A stretch of 35,555 nt of DNA from Pseudomonadota bacterium (GTDB lineage Bacteria; Pseudomonadota; Alphaproteobacteria; SMXQ01). Below are positions 15,880 to 31,026 of this stretch, in pieces. The stretch lies in NCBI GenBank assembly GCA_022545545.1, contig JACZQV010000008.1, forward strand, positions 1 to 35,555, in the 5' to 3' direction. Made by a program: the position numbers and the translations under genes. Numbering within the stretch: position 1 is the first letter of the stretch; every line of letters starts with the position of its first letter. The notes below the pieces were generated by a model that saw only the letters and a list, made by a program, of their open reading frames with translations, made no database searches and was not told where the DNA came from.

Positions 15880-16692
15880 TTAAGGCCGTGACCCCCGGCC
15901 GGGCGTCTCGCCCCTCATCAGCCTCGGTTGAATCTCGGTAAATATTAATTCTGGCAGGTACTTGGCAGAGGGAATTAAATAATCGGGCCGTGCACTCAAC
16001 AGTCTCTCGTAACCATGGTCGCCGCTAGCGTAGAACCCCACCGTCCAGGCTCCGGAAGTGCGGCCCTCGTGCACGCCCGCCTCGATGTCATCGCCCTTGA
16101 CCACCGCCTCGGGCGGGTAAACGTTGGCCTTGCTCATGCAGTCGTAGACCAAGAAAGGCGAGGGTCGTCCCGGAACGGATTCGGAATCGGCGGTCACGTC
16201 GAACTCAATCCCATGCTTCTCCGCCAGCGTCTTGTAAATCGCCTCGTACGCCTCTTTCGGATAACCGGTGTCACATCCGATCTTGATACCCGCCGCCCGC
16301 AACTGGTCTACGCATTCTTTGACGCCATCAATGGGCCTCACGAGCTCCTCCGTGACGACTACTTTTGCCACCGTCGGCCGGAACTGGGCGAACATCTCCT
16401 CGAGATCGTCTTCCGTCCAGTCGCGGCCCTGCATCTTGGTGAATTGGTCAGCCACGTCTTCGTCTTCGAGCAGTTTGCGAAGATGCTCTTTCTTGAACAC
16501 CCCCATAGGCTTTCTGATGGTCGCCCAATCGACATCCATCTTGTAATTCTGAAATATTTTCTCGAAGGCGATGACGGGCCCTTTCACGGCCCTGCCATCA
16601 TCGTTGGAATACAGGTGGGACAAGTCCTGGTGGCCATCGCACACGGTGCCCGCGATATCCAAAATTACCAGTTTGATCGGTCCAGCATACAT
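15880..16692 (-). CDS. phnX: Phosphonoacetaldehyde hydrolase (phosphonatase) family
   Basis: 270-residue HAD enzyme of the phosphonatase group, which splits phosphonoacetaldehyde into acetaldehyde and phosphate. Nucleophile D12 and the hallmark alanine are in LDIAGTVCD. The cap-domain lysine that forms the Schiff base is K67 in RKPMGVFKKEH. IGCDTGY gives the motif II threonine, GRPSPFLVYD the motif III arginine, and VVKGDDIEAGVHEG the metal acids. AGGAG precedes the ATG at 16692. Specificity could differ from classical PhnX, because a closely related phosphonatase-like family exists near other phosphonate genes. Its DNA is visibly less GC-rich than the flanks, suggesting transfer. Upstream on the same strand lies a fragment of the LysR regulator. 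Confidence 0.82.
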   Translation of the reverse strand: MYAGPIKLVILDIAGTVCDGHQDLSHLYSNDDGRAVKGPVIAFEKIFQNYKMDVDWATIRKPMGVFKKEHLRKLLEDEDVADQFTKMQGRDWTEDDLEEMFAQFRPTVAKVVVTEELVRPIDGVKECVDQLRAAGIKIGCDTGYPKEAYEAIYKTLAEKHGIEFDVTADSESVPGRPSPFLVYDCMSKANVYPPEAVVKGDDIEAGVHEGRTSGAWTVGFYASGDHGYERLLSARPDYLIPSAKYLPELIFTEIQPRLMRGETPGRGSRP

Positions 16693-16804: not shown

Positions 16805-17070
16805 TCACGCGACATAAGCATATATGTGCATCCGGGCATTGGATACCCTGAGCGTCTTCAGGCGTTCGTGGGAGGCGAACTCGGATTCCGACACCACGCC
16901 GATACCGAGACCCCGGATCACGGCCTCTCGGGCGGCTTCACGGTCCTTGATCTCCATGACGGGGCGGATCTTGACGCCCGCCTGATCGAGCGCCGACATG
17001 AATGCCTTCGGGTGGTGGAGCCGGCGCCGCGCAACACCAACTCCTGGCCATCGAGTTCCTCGATGGCGGG
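16805..17070 (-). pseudogene. 3' fragment of a duplicated LysR-family regulator gene
   Basis: Nearly identical to 28011-28272 of the intact regulator gene at 27479-28363. It encodes KTFMSALDQAGVKIRPVMEI-like sequence and continues to MHIYAYVA. The amino-terminal two thirds, with the DNA-binding domain, are absent. A one-base deletion before the CATTCATG of the MSALD segment breaks the frame, and the end is replaced by a TGA after the YVA codons. It cannot make a regulator. It lies 112 bases upstream of phnX on the same strand, so a full regulator gene may once have stood here. Confidence 0.93.
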
Positions 17071-18057: not shown

Positions 18058-18651
18058 TCAGTCCTCGATCAGGTCCTCGATCAGCCGGCGGTAATGCGCG
18101 AAGTCCGGCGTTGCAAGACCCGGCACGATGCCCCCTTCGTCCCAGCGCCTGAGCTTCACCGCGGCCTCGGCGCCAACGTTGGCCTCGAACGCCGCGACCT
18201 CGTCCGGCGACATCGGACCGCCCTGAAGGTCGAGCGTGTGCGCCGTTTGCGGCGGCAGCTTGTCGAGGAAGCCGGGCTCCACCGCGCAAAGGTAACGCTT
18301 GGCGGCCACGTGCAGGCGGATCGGCTCGGTCACCTCGGGTCCGAAGAAGGGCGCCAGCAATCGGGCCCCCATTTCCTCGTGCCGGTGGTCGGTCTCGGCC
18401 CCCAGCATGGCCGCGTGGCTCCCTTCCAGGTAGGTCTCCGGGAAATCGGTGCCGAAGTGGCCGACGTCGTGAAGCAGGGCGGCCGCGACCAGATGTCCCG
18501 CCGCGGCCGCGCGCTCGGCCAGGGCGGCGGTCTGCAACATGTGCTCCGACATGGTCACCGCGCTGCCCTGATAGGGGCGCGAGCCCGCGCGGACGAAGAT
18601 GCCGGATAACACATCGATGATATTTTGTTTGCTCGCCGATGTTCCGATCAT
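18058..18651 (-). CDS. PhnZ-like HD-domain protein of phosphonate degradation loci
   Basis: 197 residues matching the HD family found in phosphonate operons, which includes the mixed-valence diiron oxygenase PhnZ (cleaves 1-hydroxy-2-aminoethylphosphonate to glycine and phosphate). Likely metal ligands: H37 in SEHMLQTA, H61-D62 in LLHDVGH, H91 in HRHEEMG, H114 in RLHVAAK and D171 in RRWDEGG; K118 and H65 are also conserved. Y27 matches the gating tyrosine, but the residue corresponding to PhnZ Glu27 is Ser30 (PYQGSAV). This suggests a substrate other than the free-amine compound. A dedicated partner dioxygenase is not adjacent. It runs convergent to the SDR gene and lies upstream of no overlapping gene; ALDH lies behind it on the same strand. 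Confidence 0.82.
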   Translation of the reverse strand: MIGTSASKQNIIDVLSGIFVRAGSRPYQGSAVTMSEHMLQTAALAERAAAAGHLVAAALLHDVGHFGTDFPETYLEGSHAAMLGAETDHRHEEMGARLLAPFFGPEVTEPIRLHVAAKRYLCAVEPGFLDKLPPQTAHTLDLQGGPMSPDEVAAFEANVGAEAAVKLRRWDEGGIVPGLATPDFAHYRRLIEDLIED

Positions 18652-18702: not shown

Positions 18703-20154
18703 CTACCAGGCGAGGTTGATGTTCTTGATCTGGGTGTAGCTCAGCAACTCATCCAGCGATTCCTCGCGGCCCAGACCGCTCTGCTTCCAGCCGCCATAGG
18801 GAGCGCCCAAATAGCGGCCCGATGAGTTGATCCACACGTAGCCGGCCTGGATCCTGTCGGCGGTCTGCATGGCGAGCTTGAGATCGTTGGTGACGATGGC
18901 GGCGGTGAGCCCGTACATCACGCCGTTGACGATCTCCATCATTTGCTCGTAATCGCGCCACGAAAGGACGGACATCACGGGGCCGAAAATTTCCTCCCGC
19001 GCGATGCGCATCTCGGGCGTCACCGCATCGAACACCGTCGGTGCGATGAAGAAGCCGCGGGCAAGTTTCTCGCCGTCGGGGCGGCCGCCGCCGGTCAGCA
19101 GTTTTCCGCCTTCCGCCTTGGCCGATTCGATGAAGCCCATGACCCGGTCGTACTGCTCTTCGGAGACCACCGGGCCGACGTCGGTGTCCTCCTCCCAGGG
19201 CAGACCGACCCGATACTTCCGGGCGCCCTCCACCAGCCGTTCGATGACCTCGTCGTGAAGGCTCTCGTGGACGAAAACGCGCGAGGTCGAGCTGCACGAC
19301 TGTCCCTGGCGGTTGAGGTTCATGCCCTTGAGCACCAGGGACGCCGCCTTGGTGGCGTCGGCATCGGCGAAGATGATGATCGGGTTCTTGCCGCCGAGTT
19401 CGAGGGAAACTTCCTTGATCCCCTCGGCGGCCTCGCGCGCGATGATGCGTCCGGTCTCGACGGAACCGATGAAGGCGATCCTCGGGACATCGGGGTGGCG
19501 CACCAGGGCCGAGCCGGCGATGGCGTCGCCGGTGATGACATTGACGACGCCGGGTGGAAATATGCCGTCGCAAAGCTCGGCGAAGCGCAAACCCCCGAGC
19601 GGCGTCTGCTCCGGCTGTTTGACGACGACGCAGTTGCCGGCGGCGAGTGGCGCCGCCACCTTTTCGGCGCAGAAACGGAAGGGATGGTTGAAGGCCCCGA
19701 TCTTGGCGACCACCCCGTAGGGTTGGCGCAGGGTCATGTTCAAATGATCGGGGCCGTTGATGAAGGTGGTTCCCTTGATCTCCCTCACCAGGCCGGCGAA
19801 ATAGCGCAGCGTATCCGCCGACCAGGTCATGTCGCCGCGCATCCCCGATACCGTGTTTCCCGAATCATAGGCGTCGATGAGGGCCAGCTCCTCGCTGTTG
19901 GCGAGGATGCTCTCGGCCAGCGCCTCGAGGCACCTGGCGCGTTCCGCCGGCGGTGTCTTGCCCCAATCGGGCGCCGCGCGCTTGGCCGCCTGGACGGCGA
20001 GGTCGACGTCTTCCTCGCCGGCCCAGGGGACCTCGGCCAGCCGTTCGCCATTCGAAGGGTTGATCGAGACCAGGCTCTTGCCGGCGGCGCCGGGCGTCCA
20101 CTCGCCGCCGATGTAAAGCCCCTTGGGCGTGTAGCTGATTCCGGCTGAACTCAT
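18703..20154 (-). CDS. NAD(P)-dependent aldehyde dehydrogenase, candidate phosphonoacetaldehyde dehydrogenase
   Basis: 483-residue ALDH with intact active site: IGAFNHPFRF with the oxyanion asparagine (N156), the catalytic glutamate in LELGGKNP (E252) and nucleophile C287 in GQSCSSTSR. EEIFGPVMSV and SSGRYLGAPYGGWKQSGLGRE complete the fold. It resembles betaine-aldehyde-type enzymes. Position in the island suggests oxidation of phosphonoacetaldehyde to phosphonoacetate, the substrate of the PhnA domain encoded nearby, as PhnY does in rhizobia; this is inference from context. GGGAGAGG precedes ATG 20154. The frame opens 19 codons earlier, but that part encodes the tandem repeat VLDDG-VLDDG and is unlikely to be translated. 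Confidence 0.87.
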   Translation of the reverse strand: MSSAGISYTPKGLYIGGEWTPGAAGKSLVSINPSNGERLAEVPWAGEEDVDLAVQAAKRAAPDWGKTPPAERARCLEALAESILANSEELALIDAYDSGNTVSGMRGDMTWSADTLRYFAGLVREIKGTTFINGPDHLNMTLRQPYGVVAKIGAFNHPFRFCAEKVAAPLAAGNCVVVKQPEQTPLGGLRFAELCDGIFPPGVVNVITGDAIAGSALVRHPDVPRIAFIGSVETGRIIAREAAEGIKEVSLELGGKNPIIIFADADATKAASLVLKGMNLNRQGQSCSSTSRVFVHESLHDEVIERLVEGARKYRVGLPWEEDTDVGPVVSEEQYDRVMGFIESAKAEGGKLLTGGGRPDGEKLARGFFIAPTVFDAVTPEMRIAREEIFGPVMSVLSWRDYEQMMEIVNGVMYGLTAAIVTNDLKLAMQTADRIQAGYVWINSSGRYLGAPYGGWKQSGLGREESLDELLSYTQIKNINLAW

Positions 20155-20179
20155 GGACCTCTCCCTGCGCGGTTCGTCG

Positions 20180-20209
20180 CCATCGTCCAAGACCCCATCG
20201 TCCAAGACC
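20180..20209. repeat. 15-bp perfect tandem duplication
   Basis: CCATCGTCCAAGACC occurs twice in tandem (20180-20194, 20195-20209), 26 bases upstream of the aldehyde dehydrogenase start codon. Confidence 0.9.
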
Positions 20210-20406
20210 ATGGAACGCCCCGACCCGTAGGCTTGCTTGAACGATTATCACGGCGCATCAGATCGATCCAATATCAAAAATAGCGTTGACCATTGAACCG
20301 ATCGATAGATAGCTCGGCGCCATAAAGGCCAATCGCCGGGGCGTGGATGACGGTGGACCGGCGGTTAGTGACGCGGCGGCGCCCGGGGCCAGGTGGCCTT
20401 GACCGC

Positions 20407-21144
20407 TCAGCGCCCCAGGCGGGTCAGGGCCTTGGCGGCCTCCGCCGCGATCGCCGCGTGTTCCGGTAAGCTTGCGGTGAGCTTGCGGACCTTCCTCCAG
20501 GCGGCGGCGGCTTTGTCCCGCTTGCCCCATTCATCGTAAGTCTTGGCGAGCTCATGATTGGCGACGATGTGATCGGGAGCGATCTCGACCGCGCGCACGA
20601 GGTTCAACTCGGCGCGTTCGAAACCCGCTTCGGGGTCGGGGTTGACGAAACGCCCCAAGGCCTCGCCGTCTTTGGGCGGTGGGCGCGGCAGGCGGGAAAT
20701 CTTCCCCAAATTCACCAGCGCCTTGATGTTGAAAGGATCCAACTCGATGGCGTGGTTGAGCTCCTCGATCGCCGAGTCTATGTCACCCACCTCCACCCGC
20801 AACAGAGCGTTTTCGATGTGGGGCGCGGCGACGTAGCGGTCGACCTTCTTGGCCGCCCGATAGGCCGCGAAGGCCTTATCGTAATCCTTTAGCACGCGAT
20901 AGGTGTTGCCGAGCAACATCCTCGGCTCCATGGCGTCGATGTCGAGCTTCGCCGCCTCCTCCAGTTCTATCGTCGCCGCCTTGTACTGGCCCTTGGCGAT
21001 CAGGGCCTTTCCTTGCTTGAGATGTTCCGCCGAGCGTTCCTCATCGCTGGGGCCACAAGACGCCGCGCCAAAACCGATGGCGAGGAGCAGGCCGATGTAA
21101 ATTAAAGCGGTGAATTTCCGCCCGGCTACCGGTTTTGTCGTCAT
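20407..21144 (-). CDS. TPR-repeat lipoprotein
   Basis: 245 residues. An amino-terminal hydrophobic segment ends in a lipobox-like GAASC (about residue 30), so it is probably lipidated and periplasmic. Tetratricopeptide helices follow: AEHLKQGKALIAKGQYKAAT, then LGNTYRVLKDYDKAFAAYRA, then AIEELNHAIELDPFNIKALV and LVRAVEIAPDHIVANHELAK. TPR proteins mediate protein contacts; no partner is known. It lies between the aldehyde dehydrogenase and the importer genes on the same strand, but about 200 and 70 bases separate it from them. Start ATG 21144; an ATG in the upstream repeat copy hits TGA after five codons. Confidence 0.8.
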   Translation of the reverse strand: MTTKPVAGRKFTALIYIGLLLAIGFGAASCGPSDEERSAEHLKQGKALIAKGQYKAATIELEEAAKLDIDAMEPRMLLGNTYRVLKDYDKAFAAYRAAKKVDRYVAAPHIENALLRVEVGDIDSAIEELNHAIELDPFNIKALVNLGKISRLPRPPPKDGEALGRFVNPDPEAGFERAELNLVRAVEIAPDHIVANHELAKTYDEWGKRDKAAAAWRKVRKLTASLPEHAAIAAEAAKALTRLGR

Positions 21145-21200: not shown

Positions 21201-21215
21201 ATGAAAGTAAGTACT
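21201..21215. mobile_element. Solo tip of the MITE-like element
   Basis: ATGAAAGTAAGTACT equals the outermost 15 bases of the right end of the elements at 2198-2465 and 5384-5653. No internal element sequence remains on its left. Its last two bases plus the flanking A make the TAG stop of the phnE gene that follows. Confidence 0.75.
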
Positions 21216-22077
21216 AGATGACCTTCGCCCGCCACTTCGAGCAGACCCAGTCGGTCGCCCAAACCAATAAGAAGATAACCAGAATGCAGGTCGCTGTCTC
21301 GTGGTATCTGAAGAGCTTCAGGGTCTTGATCAGGGAAAAGCCGAGACCGCCGGCGCCGACGAGCCCCAAGACGGTCGCCGAGCGGATGGAGACGTCGAAA
21401 CGGAAGATCGAATAGCTGATGAAGGCGGGAATGGCCTGGGGGATGACGGCGAAGAGAATGACCTGCATCTTCGAGGCGCCGGTGGCCTGCATCGCCTCGA
21501 CCTGGCCGCGGTCGACTCCCTCGATCTCCTCGCCGCAGAACTTCGACAGCATGCCGGTGGCGTGCACGGCGATGGCAAGGACACCGGCGAAGGGACCGAG
21601 GCCGACGGCGCTGACGAAGATCAGGGCGAAAATCAGTTCGTTGATCCCGCGAAGGACGTTGAGGAACATTCTCGTGACGTGAAAGACCAATAGGTGGAGG
21701 CCAAGCCGCTCCCAATGCTCGTTGAACCAGGGGATCCTGATCAATGGCGTGGTGTTGCGCGCCGCCAGCAGGGACAACGGGATGGAAAACACCACCGCCA
21801 GCAATGTTCCCCAGACCGCGATCTGGATGGTCTCGACCGTCGCCCGTCCGAGAAAGAGAATGTAACTCAGATCGGGTGGGAACATGCGGGTGAGGAAGTC
21901 CCACATGTGGTCGGCTCCTTGGACCAGGGCGAAGGGATTGAGCCCGATTTCCCTGGCGGTGAACCAGAGAACGGCGAGGGCGAGGCTGCCCCAGCCGAGT
22001 GCCTTCACCAACCGGCGCCGGCGGCGGATGGCCTCCAGTTGCAGGGCGGCGGCGACGGATTCGTCAACCGTCGTCAT
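21214..22077 (-). CDS. phnE: Phosphonate ABC transporter permease, second subunit
   Basis: 287-residue inner-membrane permease of the PhnE family. The EAA coupling loop is clear (VDRGQVEAMQATGASKMQVI then FAVIPQAIPAFISYSIFRFD), followed by VRSATVLGLVGAGGLGFSL, characteristic of phosphonate permeases. About six hydrophobic spans. It is encoded last in the importer operon and overlaps phnC by 14 bases. With the other PhnE it would form the heterodimeric channel. The stop codon falls within the tip of a mobile element, so its last residues (WRAKVI) may be non-native. Confidence 0.93.
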   Translation of the reverse strand: MTTVDESVAAALQLEAIRRRRRLVKALGWGSLALAVLWFTAREIGLNPFALVQGADHMWDFLTRMFPPDLSYILFLGRATVETIQIAVWGTLLAVVFSIPLSLLAARNTTPLIRIPWFNEHWERLGLHLLVFHVTRMFLNVLRGINELIFALIFVSAVGLGPFAGVLAIAVHATGMLSKFCGEEIEGVDRGQVEAMQATGASKMQVILFAVIPQAIPAFISYSIFRFDVSIRSATVLGLVGAGGLGFSLIKTLKLFRYHETATCILVIFLLVWATDWVCSKWRAKVI

Positions 22078-22828
22078 CGGCCGCCTCCGGGTCCCGGTAA
22101 TAAATTTGTTGCAAGATGTCGTCCGTCAACTTGCCCGACGGCCCGTCGAAGACGACGGTGCCCTGTGACAGGCCGACGACCCGTTCGGCATATTCGCGGG
22201 CGTATTCGACCTGGTGAAGGTTACAGAGCACGGTGATGCCGAGTTCGCCGGCGATCTGCTTGAGATAGGTGAGCACCTGGCGCGCGATCTTGGGGTCGAG
22301 GCTCGCCACCGGTTCGTCGGCGAGGATAACTTTCGGTTCCTGGGCAAGCGCCCGGGCGATGGCGACCCTTTGCTGCTCGCCGCCGCTTAAGGTGTCGGCG
22401 CGCTGGAACGCCTTGTGCTCCATGTTCACGCGCGTCAGACATTCTATGGCGACGCGCTTGTCGTCTTGGTCGAATTTGTAAAGCAGGCTGGGCCAGAAGG
22501 TATGGTAGGCAAGCCGTCCGCTGAGGACATTCATCAGCACCGATAGCCGTTTGACCAGGTTGAACTGCTGGAAGACCATGCCGATATCCCGCCGCGCGGC
22601 GCGGAGTTGGCGCCTGCGGCTCGTCACCTCGCGGCCGTCGAGAAGGATTCTCCCGCTGGTCGGCTCCACCAGCCGGTTGATGCAGCGCATCAGGGTCGAT
22701 TTGCCCGCCCCGGATGGGCCCAGGATCACCAGGAACTCGCCCTCCTTGACGTGGATGCTGACGTCCCTGAGCGCGACGATCCCGCTGGTGCCTCCATAGG
22801 TCTTGCTTACATTCTCGAGCGTGATCAT
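22064..22828 (-). CDS. phnC: Phosphonate ABC transporter ATP-binding protein
   Basis: 254-residue ATPase starting [13 protein letters not shown]. Walker [10 protein letters not shown] (37-45), Q-loop in VFQQFNLV, signature [15 protein letters not shown] (147-161), Walker B VILADEP (167-173) and switch H205 in NLHQVEYA. The [20 protein letters not shown] segment with the [10 protein letters not shown] insertion is typical of PhnC. It energises uptake of phosphonates by the two PhnE permeases. The reading frame stays open far upstream, across the neighbouring permease gene in another frame, but family alignment and a GGGA site support the ATG at 22828. Confidence 0.95.
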
Positions 22829-22917
22829 CGATCGGTCCCGTTCAAGGCGCGGCGGTGAACATTCGGTGATTTCCTCGAACACATACCTTAATTCCCTCTC
22901 ACACCCGTATCCGGGCC

Positions 22918-23733
22918 TCAGTAGATTCTGCTTCGGATCAACGATGAGGCCACATCGATGATCGTCACCATGGCGAGGATGATAAGCAAGACAACCGCGG
23001 TCTCGCGGAACTCGAACAGCCTGATGGTCGTCACCAACTCGAATCCGATGCCGCCGGCGCCGACCATGCCGAGCACGGTCGCGGAACGGACCCCGACCTC
23101 GAACCAATAGAGCATGTAGGTCACGAACTGCGGCAGCACCTGGGGAAAGATGGCAAAGAGGATGACCTGGATGCGCCCCGCCCCGGTGGCCTGGATGGCC
23201 TCGACCGGTCCCGGGTCGATGTTCTCCATCGCCTCGGCATAGAGCCGGCCGAGGATGCCGGCGTAGTTCATGCCGAGCGCCACGGCGCCGGGGAAGGGGC
23301 CCAACCCCACCGCGGCGACGAAGAAGATCGCCCAGATCAGTTCCGAGATGCTGCGAAACAGGTTGAGGGTCCCCTTGGCGAAGAACCGCACCGGCGCCAG
23401 CCGGGTGATATTGCGGGCCGCCAGCACCCCGAGGGGAAGACCGATCAGCGTCGCCAGTACGTTTCCCCAAATGGCGATATAGACGGTCTCGATCGCGGGC
23501 TGCCAGACGGTATCGGCGAAGACCCACTTGGGCGGCACCATCAGGGCGAAATATTTGGCGATCTTGGGGATGCCGTCGGCAAGCTCCTTCGGACTCAGGT
23601 CGACGCCGTCGGCGGCCCAAGCGAGGAACGCGATTCCCACCGCCATGAATGCGATGTGGTGGAACCGCCACTTCTTGCGCGCGACCAGCGCGGCAAGCAC
23701 ATCGTCCTGGGCCGCTTGAACAGGGTCAGCCAT
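22918..23733 (-). CDS. phnE: Phosphonate ABC transporter permease, first subunit
   Basis: 271-residue PhnE-family permease. After a cytoplasmic start and first helix it has GNVLATLIGLPLGVLAARN, then FRSISELIWAIFFVAAVGLG, and the coupling loop PGPVEAIQATGAGRIQVILF with FPQVLPQFVTYMLYWFEVGV and RSATVLGMVGAGGIGFEL. It is a paralogue of the other permease, and the pair flanks phnC. The gene order phnD-phnE-phnC-phnE differs from the common phnC-phnD-phnE. Confidence 0.94.
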   Translation of the reverse strand: MADPVQAAQDDVLAALVARKKWRFHHIAFMAVGIAFLAWAADGVDLSPKELADGIPKIAKYFALMVPPKWVFADTVWQPAIETVYIAIWGNVLATLIGLPLGVLAARNITRLAPVRFFAKGTLNLFRSISELIWAIFFVAAVGLGPFPGAVALGMNYAGILGRLYAEAMENIDPGPVEAIQATGAGRIQVILFAIFPQVLPQFVTYMLYWFEVGVRSATVLGMVGAGGIGFELVTTIRLFEFRETAVVLLIILAMVTIIDVASSLIRSRIY

Positions 23734-23854: not shown

Positions 23855-24772
23855 TTACTTCTTCTTTTTCTTCTTCTTTTTCTTTTTGCCCTTCTTCGTG
23901 AGATCCAGATTCAACGCCGAAGCAATTTGCCGGATCACGTCATAGGTCTTGTCCGTGGCCGGATCGAAGCGGGCGACCGTGCCCATCTCGCCGAATGCCA
24001 GGTTCTTGAAGCCGAAAAAGGCGTCGCGGATTTTCTTCTTCAAGCCTTCCGACAGGGCCTTGCGGTAAAGCATCGGATTGTTCGGGATCAGATCCGACTG
24101 CCAGATCACCTTGATCTTCTTGCGGTCGGCCAGACCCTTGGCGAAAGCCCGCTCGAGGATGCGGTCGGCTACCGACGCCGCCTCGACCTTGCCCTCGGCC
24201 ACGGCGACGATGCTGGCGTCATGACCGCCCGAGTACATCACCTGCTTGAAGTCCTTCTCGGGCACGATGCCGGCCCTTACGAAGAAGGCGGAGGGCACCA
24301 TGTAACCCGAGGTCGAGCCCGGATCGACGAAGGCGTAAGTGCGGCCCTTGATGTCCATCAGCGAATTGATCGGGCTGTCTTTCTGCGTGATGATGATCGA
24401 GTGGTAGCCGGGCTGCATCGTCTTCGCCGTGACGGTGATGGCGAAGGCCTCGACGTCCGCCTGGGTGGTCGCCAGGACGTACGAGAACGGGCCGAGCAGG
24501 GCCACGTCGATGTGGCCGGCACGCAGCGCCTCGATGGTGGCGTTGTAATCGGAACCGACGAACAACTCCACCTTCATGCCGATCGCCTTGGCAAGTTTGT
24601 CCGCGATGGGTTTCGATTGGCGGATCATCGCCCGCGCGTCCTCGGCCGGGATGAAGCCGACCATGAGAACGCCAGGTTTGGCCGTTCCGTCGTCCTTTGC
24701 GGCCATCGCTCCGGGAATCGTTCCCAGCGCCAAGAGCAGCGCCGAGACCGCTAAAGTAAGTATGCGTTTCAT
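23855..24772 (-). CDS. phnD: Phosphonate ABC transporter periplasmic binding protein with poly-lysine tail
   Basis: 305-residue PhnD-type binding protein that captures phosphonates in the periplasm. A signal peptide (MKRILTLAVSALLLALGTIP, cleavage near AMA) precedes VGFIPAEDARAMIRQSKPIA, the PhnD opening. ALLGPFSYVLA, YAFVDPGSTSGYMVPSAFF and VMYSGGHDASIVAVAEGKVE are family motifs. The protein ends LTKKGKKKKKKKKKK: ten consecutive lysines after a glycine, encoded by mixed AAA/AAG codons. Such a tail is not a normal PhnD feature. GGGAGGA lies just before the ATG. First gene of the importer operon. Confidence 0.94.
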   Translation of the reverse strand: MKRILTLAVSALLLALGTIPGAMAAKDDGTAKPGVLMVGFIPAEDARAMIRQSKPIADKLAKAIGMKVELFVGSDYNATIEALRAGHIDVALLGPFSYVLATTQADVEAFAITVTAKTMQPGYHSIIITQKDSPINSLMDIKGRTYAFVDPGSTSGYMVPSAFFVRAGIVPEKDFKQVMYSGGHDASIVAVAEGKVEAASVADRILERAFAKGLADRKKIKVIWQSDLIPNNPMLYRKALSEGLKKKIRDAFFGFKNLAFGEMGTVARFDPATDKTYDVIRQIASALNLDLTKKGKKKKKKKKKK

Positions 24773-24951: not shown

Positions 24952-27348
24952 CTAGGGGACAATGGCGGCGCGCAGAACCTGACGCTCCGCCGCCTGTTTG
25001 AAGGCCGTATCCAGATCATCGAGGCTGAAACGGCCGTTAACGAGCTCATTGAATGGAAAGACGCCGCGGTTGCGATAGACGAAATCGAGCGCCTCGACGA
25101 GATGCCGCGGGTGGTAGTTGTGAACGCCGCGGATGGTGATCCACTTGGTCAGTATCAGGTTGGCGTCGACATTGACGTTGGCGTCGGGGAACACGATCCC
25201 GGCAATGACGTAGCGGCCACCCTTGCGCAACATGCGAAGTCCGTCCGGGATCACGTCCGGCACGCCGCAGACCTCGATGACCGCGTCCGGGCCGTCCACC
25301 GGGCAGGCGTCACGCACCTCCGCGACCACCGCCTCGGCCGACATCTCGCTTACGTTCAGCACCAGATCGGCGCCGAACTTCTCAGCCATTTCAAGGCGGT
25401 CGGGGACCGTATCAAGGCCGATCACGAAACGTGCGCCCTTGGCCCGGGCGAGGGCGACACCGAAGATCCCGAGTAAGCCGAGGCCCTGCACCACCACCGC
25501 GTCGCCGATGCCAATCGCGGCCGCCTCGGTGACACACACCATGGTCGCGGCGGCGCAATTCAAGGGCGTCGCCTCCTCGTCGCTCAGATCGTCGGGAAGC
25601 CGCAGGATGCCGGTGCCCGGCTGCAAATAGCAGTACTCGGCGAAGCCGCCGAGAAGGTGGGGGGGGACGTCGGAGGCGTCGTGACCGTATTTGCGCAGGC
25701 TCACGCACCTTTGGGGCATGTCGAGGACCCGGCAGTAGTAACAGTGGCCGCAGTAAATCCCCAAGGTCCAGGTCACGCGGTCGCCCACCGCCAGGGGCGC
25801 GCCCCGCATGTCGTCGCCGTCGCCGTCGCCGATCTCCTCGATGGCGCCGATGATCTCATGGCCAAGGATGCCGGGACAGGGATTGTGCCTCTTGCCCTCC
25901 CAGGAGTGGATGTCGGAGCGGCAAATGGTGGTCATCTTCACCCGCACCAATATCTCGCCGGGACCGGCCGGCGGAAGCGGGTAATCGCGCATGACGAAGG
26001 GCGCGTTCGGGGCCTCGAACACGGCCGCCCGCGCCGTGCGGCTCATGACGTCGCTCCCAATCTTGGGCAATTCTTCGGGTGCGTCCGCGCTCACCTCGGC
26101 GCCGTTGATGGCGTAGTCGAAGATCTCATAGTTGTTGACGACACCACCGGCGGCGCGGGCGCGGTAGGTTTCGTTCAGGGGGGCGGAGATGATGAACGGC
26201 ACCCGGCGCTCGGAGACGCCGCCATGGGTGCGCAGCCGGTGCCCTTCGAGGCCCGAGAGATCGTGGTTCGCCGCCGACGCGCCGATGCAGGTCCCGGCGT
26301 CGCTGATCACCACCACGTCGCCCTCGCGGTCCGGCGGAAGGTCGAATTCCGCCGCCGCCGCTTGCTTGTCATGGACCGATTCGATGCCGGGGATGGCGGC
26401 GGCGAATTCGATCACGCTTTCGGGCGTCACGGCGCCGGTACAGTAGACCCGGACGAAGCCGCCAAGGGCGCCGTGGTGGCCGACGAAAGCATCGGTGATG
26501 GGGCAGATGACCGTCGTCGAGGAGGCGCCGAACTTCTCATCCAGCAGGTCCTGAAGCCAGATCACGTTAGGTGTGCCGTCGGCCTTGGATTTGTCGTTCA
26601 TGCCGTGGTCCGCGGTGAGCCCGACGACGGCGCCGAGCGCGGCCAAGCGGCCGAACCTCTCATCCAGGTCCTTATAGAAGGCGTCCGCCTCGCCCTCGCC
26701 CGGCGCGTATTTGTGCTGGATGAAATCGGTAAGGGAGAGATACATGATGTCGGGCTTGCGCGCCTGTTCCATGAACCTGATGCCGGCGTCGAGCACGAAC
26801 AGGGACAGATCGGCCGAGTACATGTCGGGCAAGGGCCGCCCGACGAAATCGAGCACGTCCTCGATGCCGTTCTCCTCCCTGGTGCACCTGTCGGCGTACT
26901 GGGACGAGAAGCAGATGGCGCCGCCGGCGATGTCCATCCCCTTTCCCAACTGCTGGCGCAGCTTGTCCTTGGCGGTGATGGCGATGACCTTTGCCCCGGC
27001 GACGGAAAATTTTTCGAAGAGGGTGCTCGAGCGCATAAGCTCCGGGCTGGTCATCACCACTTCCTCGCCGGTGTCGGGATCGAGGTAGTAATTGCCTGAA
27101 ATGCCGTGGGTCGATGGCGGGCTGACGGTGGCGATCGATATGTTGTTCGGGCAGGTGAAGGTGGGAACCACCGCGTTGGCGACGGCGCCGAACCCCTCCT
27201 CGATGAAGCGCGCGACATTGGGGACGATGCCGTCGGCGATCGCCCGGTCGAAATAGGCCGGATCGCCGCCGTCGATGCAGACGACGACGACGGGCCGAGA
27301 CGGCCAGCGGTAACCAACCCCATTGAGTTCGACGCTTTTTGCGCTCAT
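24952..27348 (-). CDS. phnA: Phosphonoacetate hydrolase fused to a zinc alcohol dehydrogenase
   Basis: 798-residue two-domain protein. Residues 1 to about 415 are PhnA (alkaline phosphatase superfamily), which hydrolyses phosphonoacetate to acetate and phosphate: D26 in VCIDGGDP, nucleophile T65 in PTFTCPNN, the metal site in LTDFIQHKYAPGE, ADHGMND, and THGG. From about 435 a medium-chain zinc dehydrogenase follows: catalytic Cys in ICRSDIH, GHEIIG, structural zinc cysteines in CGHCYYCRVLDMPQRC and the VVQGLGLLGIFGVALA nucleotide fold. This half resembles the alcohol dehydrogenase class associated with phosphonate loci. The linker has an internal ATG (26046) with GGGAG seven bases ahead, so a free dehydrogenase could also be made. 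AGGAGAGG fixes the start at 27348. Confidence 0.9.
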   Translation of the reverse strand: MSAKSVELNGVGYRWPSRPVVVVCIDGGDPAYFDRAIADGIVPNVARFIEEGFGAVANAVVPTFTCPNNISIATVSPPSTHGISGNYYLDPDTGEEVVMTSPELMRSSTLFEKFSVAGAKVIAITAKDKLRQQLGKGMDIAGGAICFSSQYADRCTREENGIEDVLDFVGRPLPDMYSADLSLFVLDAGIRFMEQARKPDIMYLSLTDFIQHKYAPGEGEADAFYKDLDERFGRLAALGAVVGLTADHGMNDKSKADGTPNVIWLQDLLDEKFGASSTTVICPITDAFVGHHGALGGFVRVYCTGAVTPESVIEFAAAIPGIESVHDKQAAAAEFDLPPDREGDVVVISDAGTCIGASAANHDLSGLEGHRLRTHGGVSERRVPFIISAPLNETYRARAAGGVVNNYEIFDYAINGAEVSADAPEELPKIGSDVMSRTARAAVFEAPNAPFVMRDYPLPPAGPGEILVRVKMTTICRSDIHSWEGKRHNPCPGILGHEIIGAIEEIGDGDGDDMRGAPLAVGDRVTWTLGIYCGHCYYCRVLDMPQRCVSLRKYGHDASDVPPHLLGGFAEYCYLQPGTGILRLPDDLSDEEATPLNCAAATMVCVTEAAAIGIGDAVVVQGLGLLGIFGVALARAKGARFVIGLDTVPDRLEMAEKFGADLVLNVSEMSAEAVVAEVRDACPVDGPDAVIEVCGVPDVIPDGLRMLRKGGRYVIAGIVFPDANVNVDANLILTKWITIRGVHNYHPRHLVEALDFVYRNRGVFPFNELVNGRFSLDDLDTAFKQAAERQVLRAAIVP

Positions 27349-27478: not shown

Positions 27479-28363
27479 ATGTATGAAAAGTGGCTTCAGG
27501 CGTTTCACATGGTCGCCAAGGAAGGCGGCTTCACCGCCGCGGCCAGGGTCCTGAATGTGGGTCAACCAACGGTTTCGACCCACGTGCGCTCGCTCGAGAA
27601 TTACTTCGGCGTTGAGCTGTTCCACCGGCGCGGACGCGATGTCGCATTGACCGGCGTTGGACGTTCGTTGCTGATCATCACCGATGGATTGTTCGGTCAC
27701 GAAGAAGAGGCCGTGAAATTCCTTCGCGCGGCCCAGGAACTCCAGGCCGGTGAGCTGAACTTCAGCGCCATCGGCCCGTATGACGTGATGGAGCTGTTGG
27801 AGGTGTTCGGCGCCAGCTATGCCAAGCTGCGGTTCTCCGTGGTTCTGGGAAGCACCGATGAGGTTCTGAAGAGCCTGCTGGAATTCGATAGCGATATCGG
27901 GATTCTCGGACACGAAGAGCGGGACCCGCGCTACTTCTGCAAGTTCTATAACCGGCACGAGGTGCTGGTGATGGTGAATGCGGCACATCCTTTGGCCGAT
28001 CGGCGCGCGATCGCCATCGAGGAACTCGACGGCCAGGAGATGGTGTTGCGCGGTGCTGGCTCCACCACCCGAAAGACCTTCATGTCGGCGCTCGACCAGG
28101 CGGGCGTCAAGATCCGCCCGGTCATGGAGATCAAGGATCGTGAAGCCGCCCGAGAGGCCGTGATCCGGGGTCTCGGTATCGGCGTCGTGTCGGAATCCGA
28201 GTTCGCCTCCCACGAACGCCTGAAGACGCTCAGGGTATCCAATGCCGAGATGCACATCTATGCTTACGTCGCTTGTCTGGCGGAACGCCGGAACCGGCCG
28301 TTAATAGCGGCCTTTTTCGAGACGGTGAACACATTGGTGGGCAAACGCACCGTGAAGCCCTAG
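27479..28363 (+). CDS. LysR-family regulator of phosphonate catabolism
   Basis: 294 residues. The winged helix-turn-helix is at the start (FHMVAKEGGFTAAARVLNVG, then QPTVSTHVRSLENYFGVELF). The effector domain includes YDVMELLEVFGASYAKL and GIGVVSESEFASHERLKTL. It matches the LysR group tied to aminoethylphosphonate-type loci, and it is divergent from the PhnA fusion, the usual arrangement. It probably senses a phosphonate intermediate and controls the island. The last third is duplicated as a broken copy beside phnX. Confidence 0.9.
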   Translation: MYEKWLQAFHMVAKEGGFTAAARVLNVGQPTVSTHVRSLENYFGVELFHRRGRDVALTGVGRSLLIITDGLFGHEEEAVKFLRAAQELQAGELNFSAIGPYDVMELLEVFGASYAKLRFSVVLGSTDEVLKSLLEFDSDIGILGHEERDPRYFCKFYNRHEVLVMVNAAHPLADRRAIAIEELDGQEMVLRGAGSTTRKTFMSALDQAGVKIRPVMEIKDREAAREAVIRGLGIGVVSESEFASHERLKTLRVSNAEMHIYAYVACLAERRNRPLIAAFFETVNTLVGKRTVKP

Positions 28364-28442: not shown

Positions 28443-29429
28443 ATGGCGGACAAGACGCGTATCGCGATTCTAGACGATTTCCAGAACGTGGCCCTGGAGG
28501 TTGCGGACTGGTCGGCCGTGGCCCAAAGGGCCGATATAACCGTGTTCGACGACCATCTCGCCGATCCGGACGCGGTCGCCGAACGGCTGAGGGGTTTCGA
28601 CATCGTCGTGATCATGCGCGAGCGCACGCCGTTTCCGGCCGCCTTGATCGATAACCTGCCCAACCTCAAGCTGCTGGTCACCACCGGGATGCGCAACCTC
28701 TCCATCGACCTCGATGCGGCGACGGCCCGGGGCGTCATCGTCAGCGGCACGGATTCCGTTGGCTACTCGCCGGCGGAGCTGACCTGGGCGCTGATCCTCG
28801 CGCTCATGCGCAACATTCCGAAAGAGGACAGGGCGACCCGCGAGGGCCGCTGGCAGACGGCGCTTGGCAGGGCGCTCAATGGCAGGGTGCTGGGGGTGAT
28901 CGGTCTCGGCAAGATCGGCGCCAGGGTGGCCGCCGTCGGCAAGGCGTTGGAGATGGACGTCGTCGCCTGGAGCCAGAACCTGACCGGGGAGCGCTGCGCC
29001 GAGGCCGGCGTCAGGCAGGTGGGCTTCGAGGACCTGCTCACGGCCGGCGACGTGATCACCATCCACACCGTGCTGAGCGACCGCACGAGGGGGCTCATCG
29101 GCGCCGGCGAGCTCGCCAAAATGAAGCCGACGGCCTACCTCGTCAACACCTCCCGTGGTCCCATCATCGAGGAAGCGGCACTGATAACGGCGCTGAAGGA
29201 CGGAACCATCGCCGGCGCCGGCCTCGATGTCTACGATGTCGAGCCCTTGCCCCTGGACCATCCGTTGCGGAACCTCGAGAACACGGTGATCACCCCGCAT
29301 CTCGGCTACGTCACGGACGACAATTACCGGGTCTATTTCGGCCACGCGGTGGAGGACATCGGCGCCTACCTCGACGGCGGCCCGGTCCGCGTTCTCAATC
29401 CCGAGGTGGTGGAAAAGACGACCGCTTGA
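28443..29429 (+). CDS. D-2-hydroxyacid dehydrogenase family protein
   Basis: 328-residue NAD-dependent enzyme of the phosphoglycerate/hydroxypyruvate dehydrogenase type. The NAD motif is VIGLGKIGARV, the active-site arginine is in NTSRGPIIEEAAL, the glutamate in DVYDVEPLP and the histidine in ITPHLGYV. The substrate is not evident; hydroxypyruvate, glyoxylate or another 2-keto acid is possible. AAGGAAGA precedes the ATG. It is followed by a strong terminator, so it is transcribed separately from the next genes. Confidence 0.9.
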   Translation: MADKTRIAILDDFQNVALEVADWSAVAQRADITVFDDHLADPDAVAERLRGFDIVVIMRERTPFPAALIDNLPNLKLLVTTGMRNLSIDLDAATARGVIVSGTDSVGYSPAELTWALILALMRNIPKEDRATREGRWQTALGRALNGRVLGVIGLGKIGARVAAVGKALEMDVVAWSQNLTGERCAEAGVRQVGFEDLLTAGDVITIHTVLSDRTRGLIGAGELAKMKPTAYLVNTSRGPIIEEAALITALKDGTIAGAGLDVYDVEPLPLDHPLRNLENTVITPHLGYVTDDNYRVYFGHAVEDIGAYLDGGPVRVLNPEVVEKTTA

Positions 29430-30195: not shown

Positions 30196-31026
30196 ATGGC
30201 GATAGCCGTAGAACCGCTGTCGGACGCCTTGGGCGCCGAGATCGCCGGCGTCGATCTCCGTCAGGACCTCGATGGGGAGACGTTCTCGAGGATCGCCGAT
30301 GCCTGGCGCGAACATCTGGTTCTGGTGTTTCGGGGCCAGCGGCTCTCGACCGAAGAGCAGATCGCTTTCGCGTCGCGATTCGGCGAATTGCAGGAGGTGC
30401 GCACGGCGCCCGGCGTCAGCCATGCCAACCCGTTCGTGATGATGGTCTCGAACGTCGAGGAGGAGGACTGGAAAGGCGTGCTGCCCGACGGCGAGATGCA
30501 ATTCCACTCGGACCAGTGCTACTACGAGGTTCCCTGCAAGCTGACGATGCTCCATGCGCTGGAGGTGCCGCCGGCCGACGGCGACACCTTGTTCGTCAAC
30601 TGCTATTCCGCCTACGAGTCGCTCACCAGCGAGATCAAGTCCGATATCGCCGGTCTCGAGGCGCTGAATGTCTATGATTACGACGCCAACGCCACCATCA
30701 GGGAAATGGAGATCAGTCCCGACGCACCGCGTTTCACCCATCCCGTCGTCACCACCCATCCCGAAACCGGCCGCAAGGTGCTTTACGTCAACCGGCTGAT
30801 GACGGATCACATCGTCGGTCTCGGTCGGGAGGAGGGCAGGGCGCTCTTGGATACGCTGATCGAGACCGCGGAACGGCCCGACTTCATCTACACCCATGTC
30901 TGGCGGGTCGGCGATGTGGTCATGTGGGACAACCGCTGCACCCTCCATGGGCGCACCGGCTTCGATCCGTCGCACCGCAGGATGCTGCGCCGGGTCGCGG
31001 TCAAGGGCGAACGGCCCTCTCGGTGA
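30196..31026 (+). CDS. TauD/TfdA-family Fe(II)/2-oxoglutarate dioxygenase
   Basis: 276-residue dioxygenase. Iron ligands: H104 and D106 in FHSDQCYYEVP and H251 in CTLHGRTGFD; the 2-oxoglutarate arginine follows in SHRRMLRRV. It opens with ALGAEIAGVDLRQDLD, typical of the TauD group. The substrate could be a sulfonate, carboxylate or other small molecule. Because a phosphonate island lies nearby, hydroxylation of a phosphonate for the PhnZ-like protein is imaginable, but nothing in the sequence shows it. GGAGGAA lies upstream of the ATG. Confidence 0.9.
   Translation: MAIAVEPLSDALGAEIAGVDLRQDLDGETFSRIADAWREHLVLVFRGQRLSTEEQIAFASRFGELQEVRTAPGVSHANPFVMMVSNVEEEDWKGVLPDGEMQFHSDQCYYEVPCKLTMLHALEVPPADGDTLFVNCYSAYESLTSEIKSDIAGLEALNVYDYDANATIREMEISPDAPRFTHPVVTTHPETGRKVLYVNRLMTDHIVGLGREEGRALLDTLIETAERPDFIYTHVWRVGDVVMWDNRCTLHGRTGFDPSHRRMLRRVAVKGERPSR

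Follow-up and report, generated by a model that had tools for sequence, protein, structure and literature searches.

The closest described relatives of the two enzymes considered here are phosphonoacetate hydrolase, PhnA (TIGR02335; structures 3szy and 1ei6), and TIGR03366, a family listed as 'putative phosphonate catabolism associated alcohol dehydrogenase', for which the name HpnZ has been proposed. Two phosphonate-catabolism enzymes are known to share one chain in PhoF of the fungus Fonsecaea multimorphosa, where PhnY* is fused to PhnZ (PMC10574752), and accessory enzymes acting on other phosphonates have been described as PbfA, PbfC/D and PbfF (PMC8154272, PMC10590968, PMC12366243). 2-hydroxyethylphosphonate is a known natural phosphonate of the sea, where it occurs among the dissolved phosphonates (PMC9381506); the PbfF study examined its oxidation for a dehydrogenase of another family and excluded it in that case (PMC12366243). 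In the literature on phosphonate catabolism that we searched, no enzyme was found named for the oxidative entry of 2-hydroxyethylphosphonate, and literature searches returned no PhnA-dehydrogenase fusion.

In the window (the whole stretch of 35,555 nucleotides that was analysed), phnA and the gene of a zinc alcohol dehydrogenase (adh) form one open reading frame on the minus strand, with the ATG start at 27348 and the stop ending at 24952; read on the plus strand, the same interval contains internal stops. The frame of 798 aa was recovered as a single open frame, with a 100% match, in its own genome, an assembly of 196 contigs. Its parts, compared with the single congeneric genome available to us, are as follows.

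24952..27348, minus strand: fused open frame, PhnA (phosphonoacetate hydrolase) plus zinc alcohol dehydrogenase, 798 aa and stop
26104..27348, minus strand: PhnA half, residues 1-415 (TIGR02335, 569 bits; 3szy alignment; conservation among 101 relatives)
26047..26103, minus strand: linker, residues 416-434, from the extended PhnA tail and the former intergenic spacer (congener alignment)
24952..26046, minus strand: zinc alcohol dehydrogenase half, residues 435-798, own ATG retained (TIGR03366, 311 bits; 1vj0; congener gene)
26054..26058, minus strand: GGGAG, ribosome-binding site of the dehydrogenase, retained and identical in sequence and spacing to that of the congener
26061..26070, minus strand: place where the window (GCCCAAGATTGGG) and the congener (GCCCCAAGAGTTGGG) differ by a net 2 nt, so that both halves share one frame in the window

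The preliminary description had proposed a complete PhnA (about residues 1-415) and a complete zinc dehydrogenase (about 435-798) in a single frame, without naming the strand, and the family matches bear this out. The PhnA domain covers residues 6-417 (NCBIfam TIGR02335, 569.3 bits against a curated cut-off of 407.55, model positions 1-407 of 408), and the dehydrogenase domain covers about 439-798, with Pfam PF08240 (ADH_N, 75.0 bits) and PF00107 (ADH_zinc_N, 88.7 bits) both over the gathering score. TIGR03366 is the closest family for the second half, matching at 462-778, though the score of 311.0 bits falls below its curated cut-off of 328.1. The nearest solved structures are 3szy for the PhnA half and 1vj0 for the dehydrogenase half. 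An ATG in the linker region with GGGAG seven bases ahead had also been reported, and it lies where it was placed: Met435 is encoded by the internal ATG at 26046-26044, with GGGAG at 26058-26054, 7 nt upstream, as in the congener. Since each half can be aligned over its full length with a known family, and since the internal ATG and Shine-Dalgarno sequence are those of the congener's own dehydrogenase start, the fused frame is not a chance open reading frame.

In the alignment with 3szy, the PhnA residues D26, T65, D208, H212, D247, H248 and H375 are all present; we take these to be the dinuclear zinc ligands and the nucleophilic threonine, the site being assigned from the 3szy structure. The catalytic and structural zinc residues of the dehydrogenase are likewise in place (C476, H497 and E498; C533, C536, C539 and C548). 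The earlier claim that the active sites of both halves are intact therefore stands for the metal residues, but PhnA residue 75 is valine (codon 27124-27126, minus strand), where glycine occurs in 101 of 101 relatives. This G75V replacement either is genuine, and then possibly harmful, or reflects an erroneous base; as it concerns one site only, it lowers confidence in PhnA activity and not in family membership. When the fused protein was modelled with AlphaFold (mean pLDDT 76, pTM 0.50), the two domains were not packed with confidence, and confidence was low at residues 53-85 and 363-431; the likely cause is that one alignment combined PhnA rows with dehydrogenase rows.

The pairing of phnA with this dehydrogenase gene is in itself nothing new, since the two genes commonly stand together in an operon: among the loci fetched for comparison, a dehydrogenase gene follows phnA directly in 47 distinct ones, a count that excludes duplicate fetches of the window and of three relatives (G004, G054 and G131), and the two genes are fused only in the window. 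They are separate in the 46 other loci, the congener included, and overlap by 1-4 nt in 18 of these. Gene overlaps of 1-4 nt are usually associated with translational coupling. No second PhnA-dehydrogenase fusion appeared in about 1,250 genomes searched whole, 80 named genome loci, 116 PhnA plasmid records or the viral contigs searched. The whole-genome searches spanned the family, order, class and phylum, plus the order of a Limnohabitans genome; those of the class, phylum and order were draws from larger groups, and the 80 loci are those kept from 429 confirmed relatives in a genome scan, so that the samples are partial. The idea of an architecture with homologues elsewhere thus failed, and an established PhnA-ADH fusion family was rejected, the same arrangement being present in no other genome, plasmid or viral contig searched. 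Several long PhnA frames that resembled fusions (G859, G097, G300 and others) were also set aside: in those that were checked, PhnA ends within 4-17 codons, the additional length being upstream. In another candidate (L050/G397) both genes share a frame, yet one TAA separates them. One further locus, in the family member G007 (L117 4691-5785), carries a dehydrogenase homologue without the structural-zinc cysteines, and there PhnA is not directly upstream.

The sole other genome of the genus that we compared, G004 (JADFJG010000031.1; L005, L016), has phnA and adh as two open reading frames that overlap by four bases, ATGA: phnA, with 450 aa when the start is called at an upstream GTG, and adh, with 364 aa. 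The two genes are 92-95% identical to the window copies at the amino acid level, and the free dehydrogenase gene is 95-96% identical to the dehydrogenase half of the fusion. In the DNA alignment, the window lacks a net 2 nt immediately before the dehydrogenase ATG that it shares with the congener (GCCCAAGATTGGG; congener, GCCCCAAGAGTTGGG), the difference consisting of two single-base gaps no more than 5 nt apart, one of them in a C run. About 21 kb of sequence was aligned to the congener, mostly at 92-95% identity, and within it no coding indel other than that at the junction has a net effect on the frame.

The length of the PhnA tail suggests how the junction arose. Beyond residue 415, the tail has a median of 4 codons in 106 copies (some fetched twice), and the congener's tail of 20 codons is the longest among unfused copies. 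The genus therefore probably lost the original stop, and PhnA then extended across the spacer as far as the start of the dehydrogenase. With the tail already extended in the genus, merging needed only a small frame change, and the outgroup comparison indicates that separate genes are the ancestral state. The fused frame is thus probably a recent merger, in one genome, of a common operon pair and not a new enzyme class. At the genus stage, the PhnA stop would have drifted to the dehydrogenase start, giving the ATGA overlap; in the window species, a further net 2-nt change would then have removed the overlap stop and left one frame, with the dehydrogenase start and ribosome site unchanged. The preliminary description had two genes joined by loss of a stop, with the second ribosome site persisting. 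The unfused congener, with the same ATG and GGGAG spacing, agrees with the joining and the persistence, but the change is a net 2-nt frame change and not a simple stop loss. The merger is expected to yield an 86-kDa fused protein whose halves may work independently on a linker of roughly 20 residues, and some free 39-kDa dehydrogenase would still be made from the retained internal start. Read in this order, the locus would be a clear stepwise case, from separate genes to an overlap with an extended tail and then to one frame with the second start kept.

Against a merger stands the fact that the fusion occurs in one genome only, a single draft in 196 contigs, and that two small indels must separate the junction from the congener's sequence. 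The species might have two overlapping genes like those of the congener, with two bases missing near 26061-26065 through an error of sequencing or assembly. Two single-base gaps within 5 nt, one in a C run, would fit such an error, as would the separation of the genes in all relatives. However, it would be unusual for two indel errors to arise independently at a distance of 5 nt, and no other coding indel changes the frame in the aligned 21 kb. The other syntenic genes of the window and of contig C173 contain no frame break relative to the congener, which argues against a general indel problem on either contig. We therefore consider a sequence error unlikely.

A less probable explanation, and one that we doubt strongly, is that PhnA is decaying: the stop loss, the merger and G75V would be early changes of a pseudogene, and selection would keep mainly the dehydrogenase made from the internal start. 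The loss of an otherwise invariant glycine, the separate PhnWX route in the genome and a higher dN/dS against the congener for PhnA (0.38) than for the dehydrogenase (0.14) are in keeping with decay. However, all 415 codons of PhnA are still open, with every metal-site residue present, and both dN/dS values lie within the range of the contig's other genes; the comparison with the congener indicates purifying selection on both halves. Nor is the divergence specific to the window. At 28 rankable differing PhnA sites, the commoner residue is found in the window at 16 and in the congener at 12, and a window-specific relaxation of PhnA is thus unsupported.

The merged pair belongs to an operon in the order LysR (divergent), phnA-adh, phnD-phnE-phnC-phnE, a TPR gene and an aldehyde dehydrogenase gene.

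27479..28363, plus strand: LysR regulator of phosphonate genes, divergent (TIGR03339, 294 bits, cut-off 341)
23855..24772, minus strand: PhnD, phosphonate-binding protein of the ABC transporter (TIGR03431, 280 bits, over cut-off)
22918..23733, minus strand: PhnE permease 1 (TIGR01097, 286 bits)
22064..22831, minus strand: PhnC ATPase (TIGR02315, 342 bits)
21214..22077, minus strand: PhnE permease 2 (TIGR01097, 265 bits)
20407..21144, minus strand: TPR protein, conserved in operons of the phnA-adh type
18703..20211, minus strand: aldehyde dehydrogenase, proposed phosphonoacetaldehyde dehydrogenase (TIGR03250, PhnY, 249 of 636 bits, below cut-off)

The operon aldehyde dehydrogenase scores nearer to betaine-aldehyde dehydrogenase than to PhnY, and a profile search found no PhnY above the cut-off in the genome. 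In relatives, its homologue often directly follows adh, in the place where PhnY sits in other clusters, and among the fetched loci none was seen with both the adh-linked aldehyde dehydrogenase and a canonical PhnY. No phnW is present in the window operon. A complete second phosphonate system lies elsewhere in the same genome, on contig C173 (L119 5895-11790), with a PhnT2-PhnU2 AEP-type transporter, a LysR regulator, PhnW (542 bits to NF010006) and PhnX (295 bits). Most genomes carrying the phnA-adh pair have PhnW elsewhere, and in eight of them, most of which are draft assemblies, no PhnW scored above the cut-off. The dehydrogenase as an obligate partner of PhnW was rejected, given these eight genomes and the PhnW-free window operon.

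Several other genes lie near the operon. At 16806-17068, about 263 bp match a portion of the congener's LysR gene region at 94% identity and represent a duplicated fragment of the regulator gene, beside a gene for a PhnX-like phosphonatase (15880-16692, minus strand; 166 of 220 bits to TIGR01422, below cut-off) that has no counterpart on the congener contig. On either side of the operon lie genes for a TmpB/Phn-HD-like oxygenase (18058-18651, minus strand; below cut-offs at 199 bits) and for a TauD-like dioxygenase (30196-31026, plus strand), which could form an oxidative phosphonate route like that of TmpA/TmpB. A D-2-hydroxyacid dehydrogenase-like gene (28443-29429, plus strand) adjoins LysR, as it does in the congener; its product is apparently of the broad family pfam02826, which includes the HAEP racemase PbfF.

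From this neighbourhood, a pathway can be proposed in which 2-hydroxyethylphosphonate, or a hydroxyalkyl phosphonate close to it, would be oxidised by the dehydrogenase, giving phosphonoacetaldehyde; the operon aldehyde dehydrogenase would convert this to phosphonoacetate, and PhnA would release acetate and phosphate. The phosphonoacetaldehyde of the module probably comes from an alcohol and not from AEP, because the operon lacks phnW, the AEP system is on another contig, and no PhnW scored above the cut-off in eight genomes that carry the pair; judged from gene neighbourhood, 2-hydroxyethylphosphonate would be the simplest candidate substrate. The operon context is thus consistent with the earlier suggestion that the product of the dehydrogenase feeds the hydrolase directly or after one step, here one step removed, via the aldehyde dehydrogenase. 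With that step between the two reactions, the fusion would mainly equalise the dosage of PhnA and dehydrogenase, without direct substrate channelling. The wider lead is the PhnA-ADH-ALDH module, which comes with a dedicated transporter and regulator and in many cases lacks PhnW. It has the appearance of a pathway for phosphonates bearing a hydroxyl group, among them 2-hydroxyethylphosphonate, which forms part of marine dissolved organic phosphorus. On sequence comparison, it is possible, and we suggest it tentatively, that the fused frame would encode the first bifunctional PhnA-alcohol dehydrogenase, newborn from an overlapping pair, in a widespread PhnW-free ADH-ALDH-PhnA route degrading 2-hydroxyethylphosphonate. 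That selection favoured a bifunctional enzyme in which the dehydrogenase is set beside the hydrolase to channel phosphonate intermediates is very improbable: both domains are complete and under purifying selection, and PhoF offers a precedent (PMC10574752), but no fused homologue shows retention by selection, the internal start is retained, the model packs the domains without confidence (pTM 0.50), and a channelling benefit is unlikely for enzymes that the aldehyde dehydrogenase step keeps from being consecutive in the proposed pathway.

Compared with known systems, the PhnA half resembles described PhnA (TIGR02335; 3szy, 1ei6) in its full length, its score of 569 bits and all metal-site residues, and differs in its C-terminal fusion and in G75V at an invariant glycine. 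The dehydrogenase half has its best family match in TIGR03366 and the same genomic association, phnA being directly upstream of dehydrogenases of this type in 46 other distinct loci; unlike that family, it is fused and scores below the cut-off (311 against 328.1 bits). The congener's pair is orthologous, with the same order, dehydrogenase start, Shine-Dalgarno sequence, and LysR and PhnDECE-TPR-ALDH neighbours, but consists of two genes overlapping by ATGA, whereas the window reads through and is net 2 nt shorter. PhoF (PMC10574752) likewise carries two phosphonate-catabolism enzymes on one chain; its enzymes are unrelated to the window pair, and its steps are consecutive, whereas those of the window pair are not. 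PbfA, PbfC/D and PbfF (PMC8154272, PMC10590968, PMC12366243) belong to different protein families, none of them that of the window zinc dehydrogenase, but as accessory enzymes they feed other phosphonates into the phosphonoacetaldehyde route, the role that is proposed here for the dehydrogenase.
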